From the NCBI GenBank assembly GCA_017303905.1, contig JAFLBH010000002.1, forward strand, positions 620,001 to 684,000: a stretch of 64,000 nucleotides of DNA, read 5' to 3'. The notes under the pieces are model-generated. The model ran no database searches. It worked only from the letters and a program-made list of their open reading frames with translations, and had not been told where the DNA came from. Below, piece after piece: positions 9,958 through 26,056 of this stretch. The DNA is from Bacteroidota bacterium (GTDB taxonomy: Bacteria > Bacteroidota > Bacteroidia > B-17B0 > Aurantibacillaceae). Positions within the stretch are counted from its first letter, which is position 1; every line of letters starts with the position of its first letter. A program made the position numbers and the translations under genes.

Positions 9958-10063
9958 TTGATTTCTTTTGTTTCTTTTCTGCATCAAGGCAGAAAAGAAA
10001 GGAGATAATCATTTGATGGCAGCAAAAAAGAAAACCCAAACTAACTGCATCAAGGAAAAAAGT

Positions 10064-10097: not shown

Positions 10098-10118
10098 CAT
10101 TCACACAAAATACTTATC

Positions 10119-11663
10119 TTAATTCTTAATCAGCTTAAATACTTTTTGCTGATTGCCATGCCCTACTCTTGCTAAATAAATTCCGGATGGTAATGAAGAA
10201 GTTTCAAAACGATACTCATTCGTTTTTAAATTTGCTTCATCGCTGATTAATTTTCCGTTGATGTCATAAATCTGCACCGCATTAATTGTTTCCATTACTG
10301 AACTGAATACATAGGCTTCATTCAAGGTTAATAATTTTACTTCCGCTAAATTTTCACTCAATGAATTTAAACCTGTGCTTAAGCAAGTAGTAATAGGATT
10401 TGTTGGAACAACAACCGGAGAAGGATTTACCGGCGTAATACTTCCTGAGGTAAATACACCTATTTGCGCCATAGCAGTAGTTACGGTAAGTACAGAGTAA
10501 GTTGGATTAATCATCATGGCACATGAAGTTAAACCTGTAGAATCTCCTTTGTATAAGTATAAATTTCCGGCCGTGAAATAAGTACCGGTAGTTAAATACG
10601 TTTTGCTGTTATAATACTGCAAACTGTGATTCATAGAACCTGTGCTTCCGTAAGAATATCCACTTACAAAGTTTAGCGCTGAATTAAAAAAGGCCAATGA
10701 GTTTCCGCTTCCCGATAATCCGGCAACCAAGGTTAGTGAACCTCTTTGATAAAGATAAGTAGGCAAATAACTATTCATTGTAAATCTGTTTAAAATATAA
10801 GGTGGTGTAGAGCTCATGTTTACATTCGAATCGATGCGTGCTATAAAATCGTTCTGACCCGTTCCGCTACTTGATCCCATCACCACTAAATTATTTCCGG
10901 CTTTAATAATTTGATTAAAGCTTGAGGAAACCGGCATGGCTCCCGCGTTAATGGTATAAGAACCTACAGGCGACAAACCGGAATTATTATTCAACTTCGC
11001 GATGAAAGGGTAAGAACCTCTGCGTCCAACCACAAAAATGGAACTGTTACTAAACTGACATACACTAAAAGCTTCCTGATCGGTGTAAAAAGTACTCATG
11101 CCATTATTAACGATTGTTCCCGTAGTGCCAACAACACGTAAAGCATAAAAGAAACGATTAAGACCACTAATAATTCTTCCCACCGCCATGATATCTCCAT
11201 TGTTTAAAACAGTGAGATCGTTAATCATAATATCACTGCTGGTAAACGACGACGTGTATTTATTAAAATAATTCACGTTACCGTTAGTTGTATCAATACT
11301 GGTGATGAAAGGATAATTTCCTGCCGACTCAAATAAATTTCCGCCGATGTATAAATTAGCGCCGCCTGCTAAAATCTTTTTTGGAGCCGCAGTGGCGGTA
11401 TACGTTCCGTTAATGCGGTAATGACGTTTCCAAATTAAATTACCATTCGCGTCATTCTTCAACACCGTTAAACATAATTTATTACTTGGCATCATGGTTG
11501 TATCTTCCACGTAAGCGATGTAATATCTTCCGCCATGCAATAAAGTAGATTGATGACAATATCCAGTACCGCAATAATTAATGGGATATTGTTTGTGTAA
11601 TGTTTGCGCCTTCATGAAATTGAAAGCCGCCATCAATAAAAGAAACGTAAATAATTTTTTCAT
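10119..11663 (-). CDS. Secreted protein with T9SS C-terminal sorting domain
   Basis: The 514-residue protein has a signal peptide (MKKLFTFLLLMAAFNFMKAQ) and a body rich in Gly, Ser, Thr and Asn with repeated short motifs (GGANLYIGGNLF, AVGRIISG, VVGRRGSYPFIAKL, VVMGSSSGTG) suggesting a beta-propeller. The last about 75 residues form a Por-type sorting domain (VQIYDINGKLISDE, LPSGIYLARVGHGNQQKVFK). Such proteins are exported by Sec, then the type IX system, and anchored or released at the cell surface. The ligand or activity of the body is not recognisable. Confidence 0.88.
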   Translation of the reverse strand: MKKLFTFLLLMAAFNFMKAQTLHKQYPINYCGTGYCHQSTLLHGGRYYIAYVEDTTMMPSNKLCLTVLKNDANGNLIWKRHYRINGTYTATAAPKKILAGGANLYIGGNLFESAGNYPFITSIDTTNGNVNYFNKYTSSFTSSDIMINDLTVLNNGDIMAVGRIISGLNRFFYALRVVGTTGTIVNNGMSTFYTDQEAFSVCQFSNSSIFVVGRRGSYPFIAKLNNNSGLSPVGSYTINAGAMPVSSSFNQIIKAGNNLVVMGSSSGTGQNDFIARIDSNVNMSSTPPYILNRFTMNSYLPTYLYQRGSLTLVAGLSGSGNSLAFFNSALNFVSGYSYGSTGSMNHSLQYYNSKTYLTTGTYFTAGNLYLYKGDSTGLTSCAMMINPTYSVLTVTTAMAQIGVFTSGSITPVNPSPVVVPTNPITTCLSTGLNSLSENLAEVKLLTLNEAYVFSSVMETINAVQIYDINGKLISDEANLKTNEYRFETSSLPSGIYLARVGHGNQQKVFKLIKN

Positions 11664-13279: not shown

Positions 13280-13362
13280 GCCATTGGTTTGGTTTTATGA
13301 GTTTTGTTTGCGGGGTGGTACCCGCGGTGGCGAATAAGGGACGCCACATTGTTTTGGTAAAG

Positions 13363-13395
13363 AAAACCATCGTTGTGAAAACAGCGATGGTTTTT
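13363..13395 (+). terminator. Terminator after recA
   Basis: AAAACCATCG (13363-13372) pairs with CGATGGTTTT (13385-13394), with a TTGTGAAAACAG loop region and a T run. It lies 84 bp after the recA stop. Confidence 0.85.
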
Positions 13396-13497
13396 GAGTA
13401 TATGAAGAATAAATAATTTTAGAATAATTTGCGATTGAATTACGGATATAAATTAGTTAACTGCAATTGCAACGCGGACAAATAAAAATTAATAATA

Positions 13498-13773
13498 ATG
13501 GAGTTATCAGACAACGTTTTTAAACTGGTTTACGGAGCCGATGTGGACATTCCTCAAATCAAAAAACTAAAGAACACTAAGGAAATTTGGAATGACATTA
13601 TGCTTTTTCTAGCTGACAATGACATTACAAAACTTGATGATATCAAGAAGATGAACCTTATTGACTTTTTGGAAATATTAAATTCGAAAGTAAAAGGCGT
13701 TCCAAGAATAAAACATAAGCCGACTCCTATTGGATATGACATACCAGGCAGCGAACCGAAATATAAAAAATAA
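13498..13773 (+). CDS. Small protein of unknown function, first gene of the accessory island
   Basis: This 91-residue, charged, soluble protein (MELSDNVFKLVYGADVDIPQ start) is probably helical in the middle (KKLKNTKEIWNDIMLFLAD) and ends in a basic, proline-containing tail. No family was recognised. Codon use is AT-rich, like the rest of the 13.5-17.7 kb stretch. Its TAA overlaps the ATG of a 38-residue membrane peptide (TAATG), so the two are translationally coupled. Confidence 0.7.
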   Translation: MELSDNVFKLVYGADVDIPQIKKLKNTKEIWNDIMLFLADNDITKLDDIKKMNLIDFLEILNSKVKGVPRIKHKPTPIGYDIPGSEPKYKK

Positions 13774-13889
13774 TGTTCAAAAGAAGAAAGATTTTGATTA
13801 CTGTCTTGGTGACAATTTTACTTCTTGTGGTTTATTTTCTTTGGCTCGACAGGCACGTTGAACAAATCTTCAGTTTTGAAAACAACTAA
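13773..13889 (+). CDS. 38-residue single-pass membrane peptide
   Basis: An ATG overlapping the previous stop (TAATG) opens a 38-codon frame. It has a basic start (MFKRRK), one hydrophobic helix (ILITVLVTILLLVVYFLWL) and a short charged tail (DRHVEQIFSFENN). The shape is that of small membrane toxins or small regulators. The coupling to the 91-residue gene suggests a two-component unit, but the function is unknown. Confidence 0.55.
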   Translation: MFKRRKILITVLVTILLLVVYFLWLDRHVEQIFSFENN

Positions 13890-14213
13890 CAGAATCTGTT
13901 TATCTCATAACCACAGCTAACAGCACCTAATGGCTATTAGACAGAAGTATCGCATCGCCATGCGCTATTAAAAGGTTACTTCATGAATTTTTATTTGCAG
14001 CGACTAATTATCTTGGGCATACTTAAATAAACATCTGAAGTTATAGTATGTTGGTGGTTCAAAATCCTAATAACGAGTAGCCACCAAATATTAATCGCAA
14101 GGCGTGGAAAGATCTCAAAAAACGCGTTCTAACTTTATCAACATAATAAATTAACTTTATGTTAATTTATTTCTCCTAAATTACTGAGGCATTTATGTTA
14201 TCTTTATATTATG
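13890..14213. other. Non-coding leader of the RT locus
   Basis: No ORF was found. It holds the inverted repeat ATAAATTAAC/GTTAATTTAT (14146-14155/14161-14170, loop TTTAT) and a weak -7-like TATCTTTA (14199-14206) just before the first copy of the 99-bp repeat. A transcript from here would carry both repeats ahead of the RT gene. Confidence 0.4.
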
Positions 14214-14322
14214 GTTACCCATTCAACTTTTGTTGACTGTTTAACCAATGCGATGGAGCTATTGCCGTTCAATAGGACAAAGACAATTTTGTTCATTTGG
14301 GTATTAGGCTCACTACTCTGTG
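14214..14322 (+). repeat. Direct repeat copy 1 upstream of reverse transcriptase
   Basis: Positions 14214-14312 are identical over 99 bases to 14562-14660. The match continues to 14322 with two mismatches, both C here and A in copy 2. The offset is 348 bp. An 89-residue frame (14211-14480) begins in it, but its second half lacks protein-like features. Confidence 0.97.
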
Positions 14323-14528
14323 CTCCTTTAACCACTAAAACCAGCGGGCTTCCCGTTTCCAATTTGGTGGATGAAGGAATTTTAAAGTGCAGCGGTGGGA
14401 CGCAAGCCAAAGAAAATTGCAAAAAAGTTGCAAAAGTCGAAAAAAGCCGGACATTTACCGCAAATCGACCTTACAACTAAAATACAATTTAATATGGTGA
14501 AAAAACGCTTAAGGTTAAGCTCAGTTTT

Positions 14529-14729
14529 GTGGCGGATTTCGCGCGCAAGTCTGGCGGAAATGTTACCCATTCAACTTTTGTTGACTGTTTAACCAATGCG
14601 ATGGAGCTATTGCCGTTCAATAGGACAAAGACAATTTTGTTCATTTGGGTATTAGGCTCAATACTATGTGTCTTTAGCTTTGTGTCTGCTGGTTCATCAC
14701 AGATGAAAATGGAAACGACAAAGAAATGA
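14529..14729 (+). CDS. 66-residue hydrophobic peptide coupled to the RT gene
   Basis: The frame crosses repeat copy 2 and ends in TGA overlapping the RT start (ATGA). The peptide contains a helix that resembles a membrane span or signal (RTKTILFIWVLGSILCVFSF followed by VSAGSSQ) and a short basic end (MKMETTKK). The same first part is encoded in copy 1. Whether it is translated, or the repeat is an RNA element with an accidental frame, cannot be decided from sequence. Confidence 0.4.
   Translation: MADFARKSGGNVTHSTFVDCLTNAMELLPFNRTKTILFIWVLGSILCVFSFVSAGSSQMKMETTKK
14562..14670 (+). repeat. Direct repeat copy 2 upstream of reverse transcriptase
   Basis: This is the second copy of the 99-bp perfect repeat (109 bp with two mismatches), ending 55 bp before the RT start codon. 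The 239-bp spacer between copies is A-rich with short GC-rich hairpins (CGGG-CTT-CCCG). Confidence 0.97.
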
Positions 14730-16006
14730 AAAGCGAAAAAAAGACAATCGACCTACTATCGGAAATTTCCGAACCTAGCTTTCTTAGAAAAGCATGGAGC
14801 TCACTAAACAAAGCCAATAAAGATTCAAAAGGTTTAAATAATGAAACTATAAAAGAGTTTCAGGATACTCTTGAAACGAGGATCCAAGATATTTCAAAAC
14901 AACTTCGTAAAAAAACTTATACTTTTCAACCTTATCGTGGAGTTTTAATCCCTAAAAAAGAAAAAGGTAAATACAGACCGCTAAGAATAGCCGACATTGG
15001 TGATAGATTAGTTTGCAAAGCAATCGCTATTAAACTTGATGAGCTATTGACACCCGTATTTAATTTAAACAACGAGGCAAGCTTTGCTTACAGAAAAAAT
15101 ACTGGCATAGCCGATGCTATAAAACAAATTGTAAAGCACTATAACAACGGTAACAAAATAATATTGGAGGCAGATATTATTAAGTTTTTTGACAATGTTA
15201 ATAGAGAGATTCTTTTAGAGAAAATTTTCAAAAATATTCCAGACAACAGTTTAAACGACTTAATAAAAAGCGGACTAAGTCAGGAAGTTGGAAACATGAA
15301 TGAACATACCATCAATGCACATTACTTTGAAGATTCAGTTAATGGTATTCCACAAGGGAACGCACTATCTCCTCTATTTGCAAACATTTATTTATCAGAC
15401 TTTGATGCAGAAGTTTTAAATTCCGGATATAAACTAGTTCGGTATGCTGACGATTTTGTTATACTATGTAAATCTCATGATGAAGCAAAAAAAGCTTACC
15501 AATTAACCAAATCAATTCTTGAAGAGAAACTAAAATTAAAAATTCATGAATTGAATACTGCAGAAGACGCCAAAACTAAAATTGTAAATCCTTCATTTGA
15601 CAAATTTCAATTTCTTTCAATTAGATTCGATGGAAAAACCTTGTGGGTTGACAAGAAAAAAATTCAATCATTAAAAGAGAAAATAAGAGATGTTACTGAT
15701 ACCAATTCAAACAAAAATCTTATTACAGTTCTAACTAAGACAAGAAATCTACTTGAAGGTTGGCTAGCTGCCTTTAAATTTGTTGACCTTGAACGAGATA
15801 TTCCGTTAATCGACGATTACGTAGACATTCAACTTTATAACGTTTTTAGAAATTTTGATTTCGGTATTAAGACAAAATATTTACGTGAAATAAAATACAA
15901 AAACGCAAACACGTATGGCTTAACTAAAGTCCAAAGACGAAAAACTGGTGTAAAAAATTGCATTGATTTTTTAAGCACTATGGACAGAGATAAAATATTT
16001 CCATAG
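14726..16006 (+). CDS. Group-II-intron-like reverse transcriptase without endonuclease domain
   Basis: The 426-residue protein has the RT blocks in order: KYRPLRIADIGDRLVCKAI (residues 82-100), ASFAYRKNTGIADAI, motif A EADIIKFFDN with D150, IPQGNALSPLFANIYLSDFD (208-227), and motif D/C RYADDFVILCKS with catalytic YADD (240-243). The C-terminal segment (KTRNLLEGWLAAFKF onward) resembles a thumb/maturase domain X; no HNH or zinc domain follows. QGxxLSP matches group-II-type RTs and excludes the SQ signature of diversity-generating retroelements. No intron domain V was found downstream. It lies behind a pair of direct repeats, so it may be an RNA-templated defence or mobile RT, or an orphaned maturase. 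Confidence 0.88.
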   Translation: MKSEKKTIDLLSEISEPSFLRKAWSSLNKANKDSKGLNNETIKEFQDTLETRIQDISKQLRKKTYTFQPYRGVLIPKKEKGKYRPLRIADIGDRLVCKAIAIKLDELLTPVFNLNNEASFAYRKNTGIADAIKQIVKHYNNGNKIILEADIIKFFDNVNREILLEKIFKNIPDNSLNDLIKSGLSQEVGNMNEHTINAHYFEDSVNGIPQGNALSPLFANIYLSDFDAEVLNSGYKLVRYADDFVILCKSHDEAKKAYQLTKSILEEKLKLKIHELNTAEDAKTKIVNPSFDKFQFLSIRFDGKTLWVDKKKIQSLKEKIRDVTDTNSNKNLITVLTKTRNLLEGWLAAFKFVDLERDIPLIDDYVDIQLYNVFRNFDFGIKTKYLREIKYKNANTYGLTKVQRRKTGVKNCIDFLSTMDRDKIFP

Positions 16007-16212
16007 TAATACGTACCCGTACGGATAACTACACTTACCATAAATTAGCACAGACATAGTAATCGAAAAGCTATTTATTACTCGCTTTACAGACCTTCAA
16101 TTTGTTTTGGCTTTGCTAATAATCATTTGTATCTTTAAATTAACATTGTGCGTGAGACAAAGGAAGCTTTAAAACCCGCCTTCGTCTATTTGCAAAACGT
16201 TAGCACTTATTT
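16007..16212. other. Gap after the RT gene
   Basis: This is 206 bp without a gene. It contains a small palindrome CGTAC-CC-GTACG (16012-16023) just after the RT stop, and TATCTTTA about 75 bp before the next gene. It lacks the GAGC...GTTC paired ends expected of a group II domain V. Confidence 0.4.
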
Positions 16213-17145
16213 ATGAAGACACTAATAATATCCCTAACCTTAATTCTATCTATATCCTCATTTGGACAAAGGAGCAATATCGACTGTAGTAAGACAATTA
16301 ATAAAGTCCCTTATTTCGCAAGACAAAACTCATCTCCATCAAAAGACTCAATACTTTTAGATTTAGAGATTATAAAAACTTGCGGTAATCTTGACTCAAT
16401 TGACGTTGATATTTTAAATGGTCCTATGGTTGCCCAAATTACAATCCAATTAACAAACGACAAGAAAAAAGTCACTTATAAAGCAATAATAGACAGTTTT
16501 AATGAATTTAAAAAAACAACGACTTATTTAACCAATCGTGAAATATTTATTGTTTCAAAAACTCTTGAGAAAAAAATTGTAACAATTGAAGAGTTTGAAA
16601 ACGATCGTTTACTACTTCAAAAAATTGGAATGCCTAATTCGGAACTTGATAATTTTAAAAAATTCATTGAAGCTAATCCATCGCAAAAGTTAACATATAA
16701 AGAAGCCTTCAGCCTATACACCACATCAAAAGAAAATAAAACCTCAGGCATTCCCTCTAAAATCGAGTTTAGCAAACTTACAGAAATTGAAACCGCAATT
16801 AAGGCAGGTAAAGAAAATGGAAAAAAAATATTGTTATATTTCTCATGCTATGGTTGCATTAACGCTAGAAAAATAGAAGACAGAATTTTGATTGACGATA
16901 AAATTAAAACTTTAATTGTACAAAACTTTAACTACTTTATTGCATACACAGATGACAATAGTGAAGACGAAATAACAAAAACTACTATGGGTAAAAAATT
17001 CATTAAAATGCAAACAGACAATTTTAAAACAAACTACCAACCATATTTTTGCATTATAGACGACTCTGGAAAAGTTTTATCTGAAATTGGTTATACTAAC
17101 AATAAAGAAGAGTTTATTGAATTTCTGAACAAAGGCCTTAAATAA
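16213..17145 (+). CDS. Exported thioredoxin-fold protein with C-terminal CxxC domain
   Basis: The 310-residue protein has a signal peptide (MKTLIISLTLILSISSFGQ), a middle region without recognised domain, and a C-terminal thioredoxin-like domain (about residues 185-310). The domain includes ILLYFSCYGCINARKIED, with C212 and C215 in a CYGC site, and the YQPYFCIIDDSGKVL strand. The pattern resembles the DsbD C-terminal/Thioredoxin_7 group. It probably acts on disulfides in the periplasm. It belongs to the AT-rich island and stands alone. Confidence 0.75.
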   Translation: MKTLIISLTLILSISSFGQRSNIDCSKTINKVPYFARQNSSPSKDSILLDLEIIKTCGNLDSIDVDILNGPMVAQITIQLTNDKKKVTYKAIIDSFNEFKKTTTYLTNREIFIVSKTLEKKIVTIEEFENDRLLLQKIGMPNSELDNFKKFIEANPSQKLTYKEAFSLYTTSKENKTSGIPSKIEFSKLTEIETAIKAGKENGKKILLYFSCYGCINARKIEDRILIDDKIKTLIVQNFNYFIAYTDDNSEDEITKTTMGKKFIKMQTDNFKTNYQPYFCIIDDSGKVLSEIGYTNNKEEFIEFLNKGLK

Positions 17146-17308
17146 AAGAGAGCTAACATTTGCCTAAAACAATCCCTCACTTTGAACTTCGACTTTTACT
17201 AACTCCATTTATAAAAAGACAATTAAAATGGAGCCGGCAACCATTCCATAAACGGGGCGACACCGAAAAGCCATACGAGTAGGATTTATTTTTTATGATC
17301 AGTAACTC

Positions 17309-17515
17309 ATGAAAACAGAAATTAGTCAAAAACTAAAATGGGGGAAAATACTCTCCATTGTAACCATCCTTTTAGGAATTATATTATTGATTTTTATGAT
17401 TACTGTAGAGGATGAACCCGGGGCTTTACCTTTGTTCTTAATACTTTCCGGAACTGTATTCTTCTTCATCAATCGCTATCAATTTAAAAAGAATCAAAAT
17501 AACAAACACCTGTAA
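17309..17515 (+). CDS. Small two-helix membrane protein
   Basis: The 68-residue protein has two hydrophobic helices (ILSIVTILLGIILLIFMI and ALPLFLILSGTVFFFI) and basic ends, consistent with an inner-membrane hairpin. No family was recognised. It has its own start 163 bp after the thioredoxin-fold gene. Confidence 0.6.
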   Translation: MKTEISQKLKWGKILSIVTILLGIILLIFMITVEDEPGALPLFLILSGTVFFFINRYQFKKNQNNKHL

Positions 17516-17577
17516 CATTAACAATAATCAGCCCTACTTTATCGCTTAAAACGACACTGAATTATAGGAAATAAAAA

Positions 17578-17670
17578 ATGAAAAAAATCCTTGCTTTTAT
17601 TTTTATAGTCCTTTTTGCAGGATGCATTTCAAAAAGGTTTGTGAAGCGTATCAAATGCGGGGAATATTAA
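17578..17670 (+). CDS. 30-residue mini-lipoprotein
   Basis: The frame MKKILAFIFIVLFAGC followed by 14 residues has a complete lipoprotein signal: basic start, hydrophobic core and lipobox LFAGC. The mature peptide would be only about 15 residues, basic (KRFVKRIK) and with a second Cys. It is shorter than typical gene-calling limits. It resembles entericidin-like mini-lipoproteins in shape only, and could also be a remnant of a longer gene. Confidence 0.5.
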   Translation: MKKILAFIFIVLFAGCISKRFVKRIKCGEY

Positions 17671-17693
17671 TAAATACTTCTTACCTTTAATTT

Positions 17694-18524
17694 ATGACAC
17701 GGTGCTTATTTATACTTTTCTTTATTGGTCTTGCTTTTACTTTCAACGCGCAAAGCTACGACATATACGCTCTCAAATTCGGTGAGCGAAAAAATTATGT
17801 CCATATGTCGGATCAAGTCGTGGGTTACAATGGCGGTGATAGCACAAAAGTTTTCTTTATGTATTGGGTTCTGAGAAATAAAGATAAAATCATCTTGGTT
17901 GACGCGGGCTTTACCTCGGATGCAGACATTGATACGAACACCATTAGTTTCATTCAACCCGATAAATTACTTGCTTCCATTCAGATAAAACCTGAGGAGG
18001 TTACCGACATTATTATCACGCATCCGCATTGGGACCATATCGGTGGCATTCATCTTTACCCAAACGCCATGGTGTGGCTGCAGGAAGAAGATTACAATGA
18101 GTTGCTTTCGAAAAAGAAAAATCCCGAAGCCTTTGGTTTCAATAAAAAAGATATTCAAAAAGTCATCGACTTAAAAGCTAAAGGTCGTCTCACGCTTTTA
18201 AAGCCTCTTCATGATCACGTGATTCTTCCCAACGTTACTGTATTAATTTCCGGTTCCAAACACACCCCCGGATCACAATATGTAATGGCACATAATGGCA
18301 ATCAAAATGTGATTATTGCTTCCGACAATTGTAAATATTACCGCAATATCACCAACATGCTGTCGAGTCCGGCTACCAGCGATCAAAAAGCCTATATCCG
18401 TAACTTAAGAAACATGAAACTATATTCCGGGGGAGATACAGATCTTATTATTCCGGGACATGACCCTTTGGTGTTTAGCAAATTCAAAACGGTAGCCAAA
18501 GATGTAGTAGAAATTAAGAAGTGA
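17694..18524 (+). CDS. Secreted metallo-beta-lactamase-fold hydrolase
   Basis: The 276-residue protein has a signal peptide (MTRCLFILFFIGLAFTFNAQ) and the zinc motif THPHWDHIGG (His110, His112, Asp114, His115). Further ligands are in KHTPGSQ, IASDN and IIPGHDP. The pattern is that of the MBL superfamily, near N-acyl-homoserine lactonase-like proteins (VDAGF, YNELL and GSKHTPGSQYV segments). The substrate is unknown; a lactonase or other ester hydrolase outside the cytoplasm is plausible. Confidence 0.85.
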   Translation: MTRCLFILFFIGLAFTFNAQSYDIYALKFGERKNYVHMSDQVVGYNGGDSTKVFFMYWVLRNKDKIILVDAGFTSDADIDTNTISFIQPDKLLASIQIKPEEVTDIIITHPHWDHIGGIHLYPNAMVWLQEEDYNELLSKKKNPEAFGFNKKDIQKVIDLKAKGRLTLLKPLHDHVILPNVTVLISGSKHTPGSQYVMAHNGNQNVIIASDNCKYYRNITNMLSSPATSDQKAYIRNLRNMKLYSGGDTDLIIPGHDPLVFSKFKTVAKDVVEIKK

Positions 18525-25809: not shown

Positions 25810-25880
25810 AAAAATGTAAAAAGCAAAGATACGGTTTTTTTATATCTGTAATCTCACATTAAAAACTTACCTTTAGGGCA

Positions 25881-26023
25881 CTTTAGGGGTGCTGACTATT
25901 AGGTTATTTGAGGTTTCTGGTTTCTAGTTAATAACTAACAAGAAACATTAAACAAGAAATAATCAATAGTAAGCTGAGAAAACACCCTTACTACCTGATG
26001 CGGGTAATGCCGACGAAGGGAAA
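25881..26023 (+). promoter_or_regulatory. TPP riboswitch 1, upstream of pnuT-like gene
   Basis: Core THI-box elements are in order: AGGGGTGC (25885-25892), GCTGAGA (25973-25979), a CACCCTT strand, then ACCTGATGCGGGTAATGCCG and CGAAGGGAA. The GGGGTGC to GCTGAGA distance is about 80 nt, far above the usual minimum, and this insertion folds into its own stems. A -7-like TACCTTTA (25868-25875) sits just upstream. CTCCCC lies 16 bp before the ATG at 26057 and can partly pair with AGGGG of the aptamer. Confidence 0.88.
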
Positions 26024-26056
26024 AGTAATTCTGTTTTCGCGCTCCCCTTTTAAATT

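Follow-up and report, generated by a model that had tools for sequence, protein, structure and literature searches.

Introduction

Among the nearest described counterparts of the locus discussed here are DRT2, a defence system made up of a UG2 reverse transcriptase (RT) and a non-coding RNA (ncRNA), in which repetitive or concatemeric complementary DNA (cDNA) is reportedly produced by jumping between short matching sequences (PMC11100668), and DRT10, which combines a UG17 RT with a SLATT gene and an ncRNA, makes tandem-repeat cDNA and is found in defence islands (PMC12632851). We consider an RT gene from a member of the Aurantibacillaceae (Bacteroidota; assembly GCA_017303905.1, contig JAFLBH010000002.1), together with the pair of long, near-identical direct repeats that stands directly upstream of it. 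The stretch of DNA analysed, positions 620,001 to 684,000 of the contig (64,000 nucleotides), is called the window below. Literature searches turned up no publication on an RT preceded by paired repeats of this kind.

In the window and in one related locus, the identity of the two copies to each other, their position ahead of the RT gene and their approximate spacing appear to have been kept, while the sequence of the repeats has not. As far as two loci can tell, this suggests that the system depends on a match between the copies. Support for the architecture is good; the proposed mechanism is read from the same two loci. We favour, at a rough probability of 0.38, the explanation that the locus consists of a structured RNA between two near-identical repeats of about 100 nt and a domesticated group II-type RT, which together would make cDNA by strand transfer, most likely for defence against phages.

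The repeat pair and its relative

The window copies (14214-14312 and 14562-14660) agree over 99 bp without a mismatch and start 348 bp apart, just as the initial annotation of this DNA had reported. The repeat can be stretched to 109 bp (ends at 14322 and 14670) at 98% identity, and its edges are sharp, the DNA flanking the two copies being unrelated. The 55 bp given earlier as the distance from the second copy to the RT start codon (ATG at 14726) holds for the extended repeat, while the perfect part ends 65 bp before it. A search of the same genome with the repeat returned just one further match, of 19 bp and at chance level, and within the window this is the sole exact repeat of at least 30 bp with copies no more than 1.5 kb apart.

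One of 395 genomes sampled from the whole phylum carries a full-length relative of the RT (L006/L035; 37% identity, 286 bits), and all later hits score 166 bits or less. At this locus, L035, the repeat measures 92 bp at 99% identity with a spacing of 381 bp (copies 10491-10582 and 10110-10201). The RT is encoded on the minus strand; its aligned start, near 10053, falls about 57 nt past the nearest copy, although the start codon is uncertain, as there is no ATG near the aligned start. The sole real relative thus keeps both repeats in the same place and at similar size and spacing, a layout that argues against the suggestion, also made in the initial annotation, that the pair is 1.3 units of a degraded tandem array.

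Compared between the two loci, the repeats are no more alike than dinucleotide shuffles (global z 0.23, local z -0.3). The intervening spacer, by contrast, is detectably similar, with a local score of 71 against 35 +/- 6 in shuffles (z 5.5, 0 of 300 shuffles), and its 3' part has a shared motif, GGTGAAAAAA then TAAGCT[C/G]AGT.T.GTGGC.G.TTTCG. With 98-100% identity within each locus, no similarity of the repeats between loci and a conserved spacer, copy-to-copy identity is itself a plausible target of selection.

No further full-length relative turned up in 1,995 genome look-ups, which were overlapping draws from the window's own genome, family, order, class and phylum and from the orders or classes of four other genomes, these collections being sampled and not exhausted. 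Scans of viral contigs, two scans of genome contigs (one with the repeat DNA as query; that collection was not scanned with the two-sequence RT profile) and tblastn searches of phages and plasmids likewise gave no closer relative, and the upstream DNA had no match in phages or plasmids. In none of some 28 other RT loci does a near-perfect repeat pair adjoin the RT, apart from three exceptions: L036, a genuine diversity-generating retroelement (DGR) taken up below; L012, with a short-period array; and L022, where a repeat of 88% identity lies about 590 bp upstream. The viral-contig locus L042 (2395-4233), which holds an RT of the group II intron type, is without repeats; the RT was placed by its flanks: judging from the flanking open reading frames (ORFs), it apparently interrupts a phage structural gene.

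These surveys bear on whether the pair might be a tandem duplication without function, the likeness of its copies being maintained through ordinary recombination and its position upstream of an RT in both genomes being due to chance. Unequal exchange can homogenise close direct repeats with no help from an RT, and just two loci are known, so the idea has some appeal. Near-perfect close repeat pairs are rare, however, with few in the 233 kb of DNA examined, yet the one relative matches in repeat size, spacing and distance to the RT. Moreover, unselected direct repeats this close together are usually lost through deletion. We therefore regard a chance duplication as quite unlikely.

Folding and coding potential of the upstream region

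The whole upstream region folds more stably than its shuffles in both loci (z -3.0 and -2.7), while separate pieces and hairpins of parts of the spacer gave no significant folding. Individual repeats can form stem-loops and fold mildly better than shuffles (z -1.3 and -2.4). Such stem-loops, and the ending of copy 2 some 55-75 nt ahead of the RT start in both loci, would suit a duplicated RT-binding element, with copy 1 belonging to a functional RNA bound by the RT and copy 2 to the leader of the RT mRNA, where binding would repress translation of the RT itself. One would expect a binding element to keep its sequence or its structure between loci, though, and the repeats are the least conserved part of the region, with folding no more than mildly better than that of shuffles; we think this explanation unlikely.

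A hydrophobic reading frame crosses the repeat in both loci, the unit lengths of 348 and 381 are both multiples of 3, and the window frame through copy 2 (14601-14728) overlaps the RT start as ATGA. These features could indicate a small membrane-peptide gene that is coupled to the RT, draws twice on a hydrophobic segment encoded by the repeat and is possibly assembled by template jumping in the manner of neo in DRT2. The long frames barely stand out from shuffles (72 and 38 of 1000), alignment of the peptides predicted for the two loci is unconvincing, and every frame contains stops. A coding role for the repeat region was thus tested and not supported, and we consider the membrane peptide very improbable. 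In L035, the equivalent of the hydrophobic frame continues into the RT without a stop. A never-ending ORF like Neo was tried as well and is excluded, since each of the two repeat-to-repeat units has stops in all six frames.

The reverse transcriptase

The RT ORF is intact (RVT_1 E 2.9e-30), has a YADD active site and includes a domain X that is weak (GIIM, 22.9 bits where the cut-off is 23). Rfam models matched no group II intron RNA within 13280-17700, even at permissive settings up to E 5; the same models match many of the control loci. The earlier description of a group II-like RT without intron RNA or endonuclease is borne out by these results. Against TIGR04416, the NCBIfam model for group II RTs and maturases, the window RT scores 250 and its relative 196, below the cut-off of 300 and below full-length group II controls (379-416). 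Scores against UG17 (149 and 141) fall inside 126-176, the span covered by ordinary group II RTs, and those against the Drt2 hidden Markov model (75-77) are far from its cut-off of 390.

In a FastTree phylogeny of 33 RTs, which was among the checks proposed earlier, the window RT and its relative (G634) form a clade of their own on a long stem with support of 1.0, apart from the intron RTs, the DGR RT and the group holding most long-ORF RTs, although deeper nodes are unresolved. An AlphaFold model built on a 22-sequence alignment has a predicted local distance difference test (pLDDT) score of 86 (38 with a two-row alignment); since the input was mostly group II and related RTs, some bias toward that fold is to be expected. 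The model matches the GsI-IIC RT along its full length, including the template-switching complex 7k9y (Z 33; 26-28% identity), followed by the G2L4 RT (Z 32), RTs of group II ribonucleoproteins and the DGR RT. The window RT is thus a complete group II-type polymerase, and it is not an ordinary intron maturase, given the lack of intron RNA, the TIGR04416 score below cut-off and the separate clade with its relative. Active-site motifs are YIDD in G2L4 and YVDD in UG10 (= G2L3) (PMC4244168), neither of which is present in the window RT.

A circularly permuted group II ribozyme was considered as a further candidate and rejected: genes for intron-encoded proteins are reportedly never near such ribozymes (PMC8637638), and Rfam gives no match at the locus.

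A possible mechanism

Under the explanation that we favour, a single transcript would contain repeat, spacer and repeat, and the RT would make cDNA from the spacer and the 5' repeat. With its 3' end, this cDNA could then anneal to the 3' repeat, which is identical in sequence; such a strand transfer would resemble that of retroviral R regions or, seen differently, the 3-nt ACA jump of DRT2 on a much longer scale. The product would be cDNA that is repetitive or circular, its unit measuring 348 nt in the window and 381 nt in the relative, and its purpose would most likely be phage defence. The repeats may serve as template, or as template and landing site. We infer the transcript ends, the binding of RNA by the RT, the strand transfer, the product and the function.

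Identity within each locus combined with free drift of the sequence is what one would expect if each copy has to anneal to the other or to replace it. Strand transfer is favoured because the closest solved structures belong to group II RTs and include a template-switching complex, and because DRT2 and DRT10 are reported to make repetitive cDNA. The RT of L035 sits in a defence island (L035:1985-14145) that includes the type I restriction-modification protein HsdR, a complete Zorya II system and a homologue of UzuA; HsdR and a YgjP-like metallopeptidase flank the RT on one side and the full ZorA/ZorB/ZorE set on the other.

Several considerations weigh on the other side. With only two loci known, their agreement amounts to one independent observation of conservation. 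DRT2 and DRT10 jump without repeats so long or so identical, and gene conversion between close repeats could homogenise the copies with no RT involved. The tested neighbours of the window RT are not defence genes: those at 13498-13770 and 16213-17142 have no PADLOC match and no defence annotation. Nor does any promoter or terminator delimit a transcript that ends within copy 2. A -7-like box had been noted before copy 1, but we found no convincing candidate for a Bacteroidota -33/-7 promoter there; the single -33/-7 match in the upstream stretch (14652-14682) lies across the end of copy 2, and the rate of matches equals the chance expectation.

That the locus represents a new kind of RT system is a tentative proposal that we still hold to be doubtful. 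In such a system, two long repeats, identical to each other but otherwise free to vary, would flank an RNA template and serve for strand transfer as retroviral R regions do, and the cDNA made for defence would be concatemeric or circular. If the proposal is true, a pair of about 100 nt is kept identical while its sequence drifts, so that homology itself would be the working part, and the system could yield a programmable template-jumping or cDNA-circularising RT.

Features of the locus and its surroundings

The features of the locus are collected in Table 1. The inverted repeat ahead of copy 1, previously described as 20 bp long, proves to consist of two 11-bp arms.

Table 1. Elements of the RT locus, in window coordinates.
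Feature	Position	Strand	Remarks
Inverted repeat, AT-rich, upstream of copy 1	14145..14171		Arms 14145-14155 and 14161-14171; 5-nt loop
Direct repeat, copy 1	14214..14322	+	Perfect up to 14312; 109 bp at 98%
Inter-repeat spacer	14323..14561	+	A-rich stretch and GGTGAAAAAA...TAAGCT(C/G)AGT motif; conserved in L035, local z 5.5
Direct repeat, copy 2, RT-proximal	14562..14670	+	Perfect up to 14660
Leader from copy 2 to RT start codon	14671..14725	+	
Stand-alone group II-type RT	14726..16006	+	426 aa; YADD; weak domain X; no endonuclease domain

Elsewhere in the window, a DUF805 RNA element (RF03081, 68.6 bits) lies at 17223-17289, some 1.2 kb beyond the RT gene on its downstream side, and a thiamine pyrophosphate riboswitch aptamer (RF00059) at 25875-26038. 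An exact 70-bp direct repeat at the window edge (1-70 and 2274-2343, 2273 bp apart) is unrelated to the RT locus.

Comparison with known systems

The window RT resembles the GsI-IIC and G2L4 RTs in its full-length fold with a thumb and in the absence of an endonuclease; it differs from group II intron RTs in having no intron RNA and in scoring below the group II RT cut-off.

In layout, the locus resembles a DGR, which also has two direct repeats of about 100 nt upstream of the RT at similar spacing. The viral contig locus L036:1729-3449 (IMG/VR 3300037453_000231), fetched as a distant RT hit, is a textbook example, with a variable repeat ending a 545-aa ORF, a template repeat and an RT; its repeats are 364 apart, and 13 of their 13 mismatches fall at template adenines. 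One could imagine a related arrangement in which one repeat is the RNA template and the other the DNA site replaced by cDNA, with copying that is faithful and non-mutagenic, so that continual rewriting of one repeat from the other by the RT would maintain their identity. Identity within each locus without conservation between loci would fit this. There are, however, no adenine-specific differences here: the 99 bp hold no mismatch, the extended window repeat has two A/C differences, both at its edge, and the single mismatch of the L035 repeat is C/T. In addition, the RT falls outside the DGR clade, no variable protein gene or accessory gene was seen, and faithful self-rewriting would bring no obvious benefit. 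We judge a DGR-like pair to be decidedly unlikely.

DRT10 offers a parallel in the proposed pairing of an RT with an ncRNA and in the defence island around the relative's locus. No SLATT gene adjoins the RT among the window neighbours, which lack PADLOC matches, or among those of the relative, which are HsdR, the YgjP-like protein and Zorya. With DRT2 the locus shares an RT beside a structured RNA, and it is in the scale of the proposed jump that they part: DRT2 relies on a 3-nt match and a stop-free unit of 120 bp, whereas here the match would be about 100 nt and the unit 348 or 381 nt.
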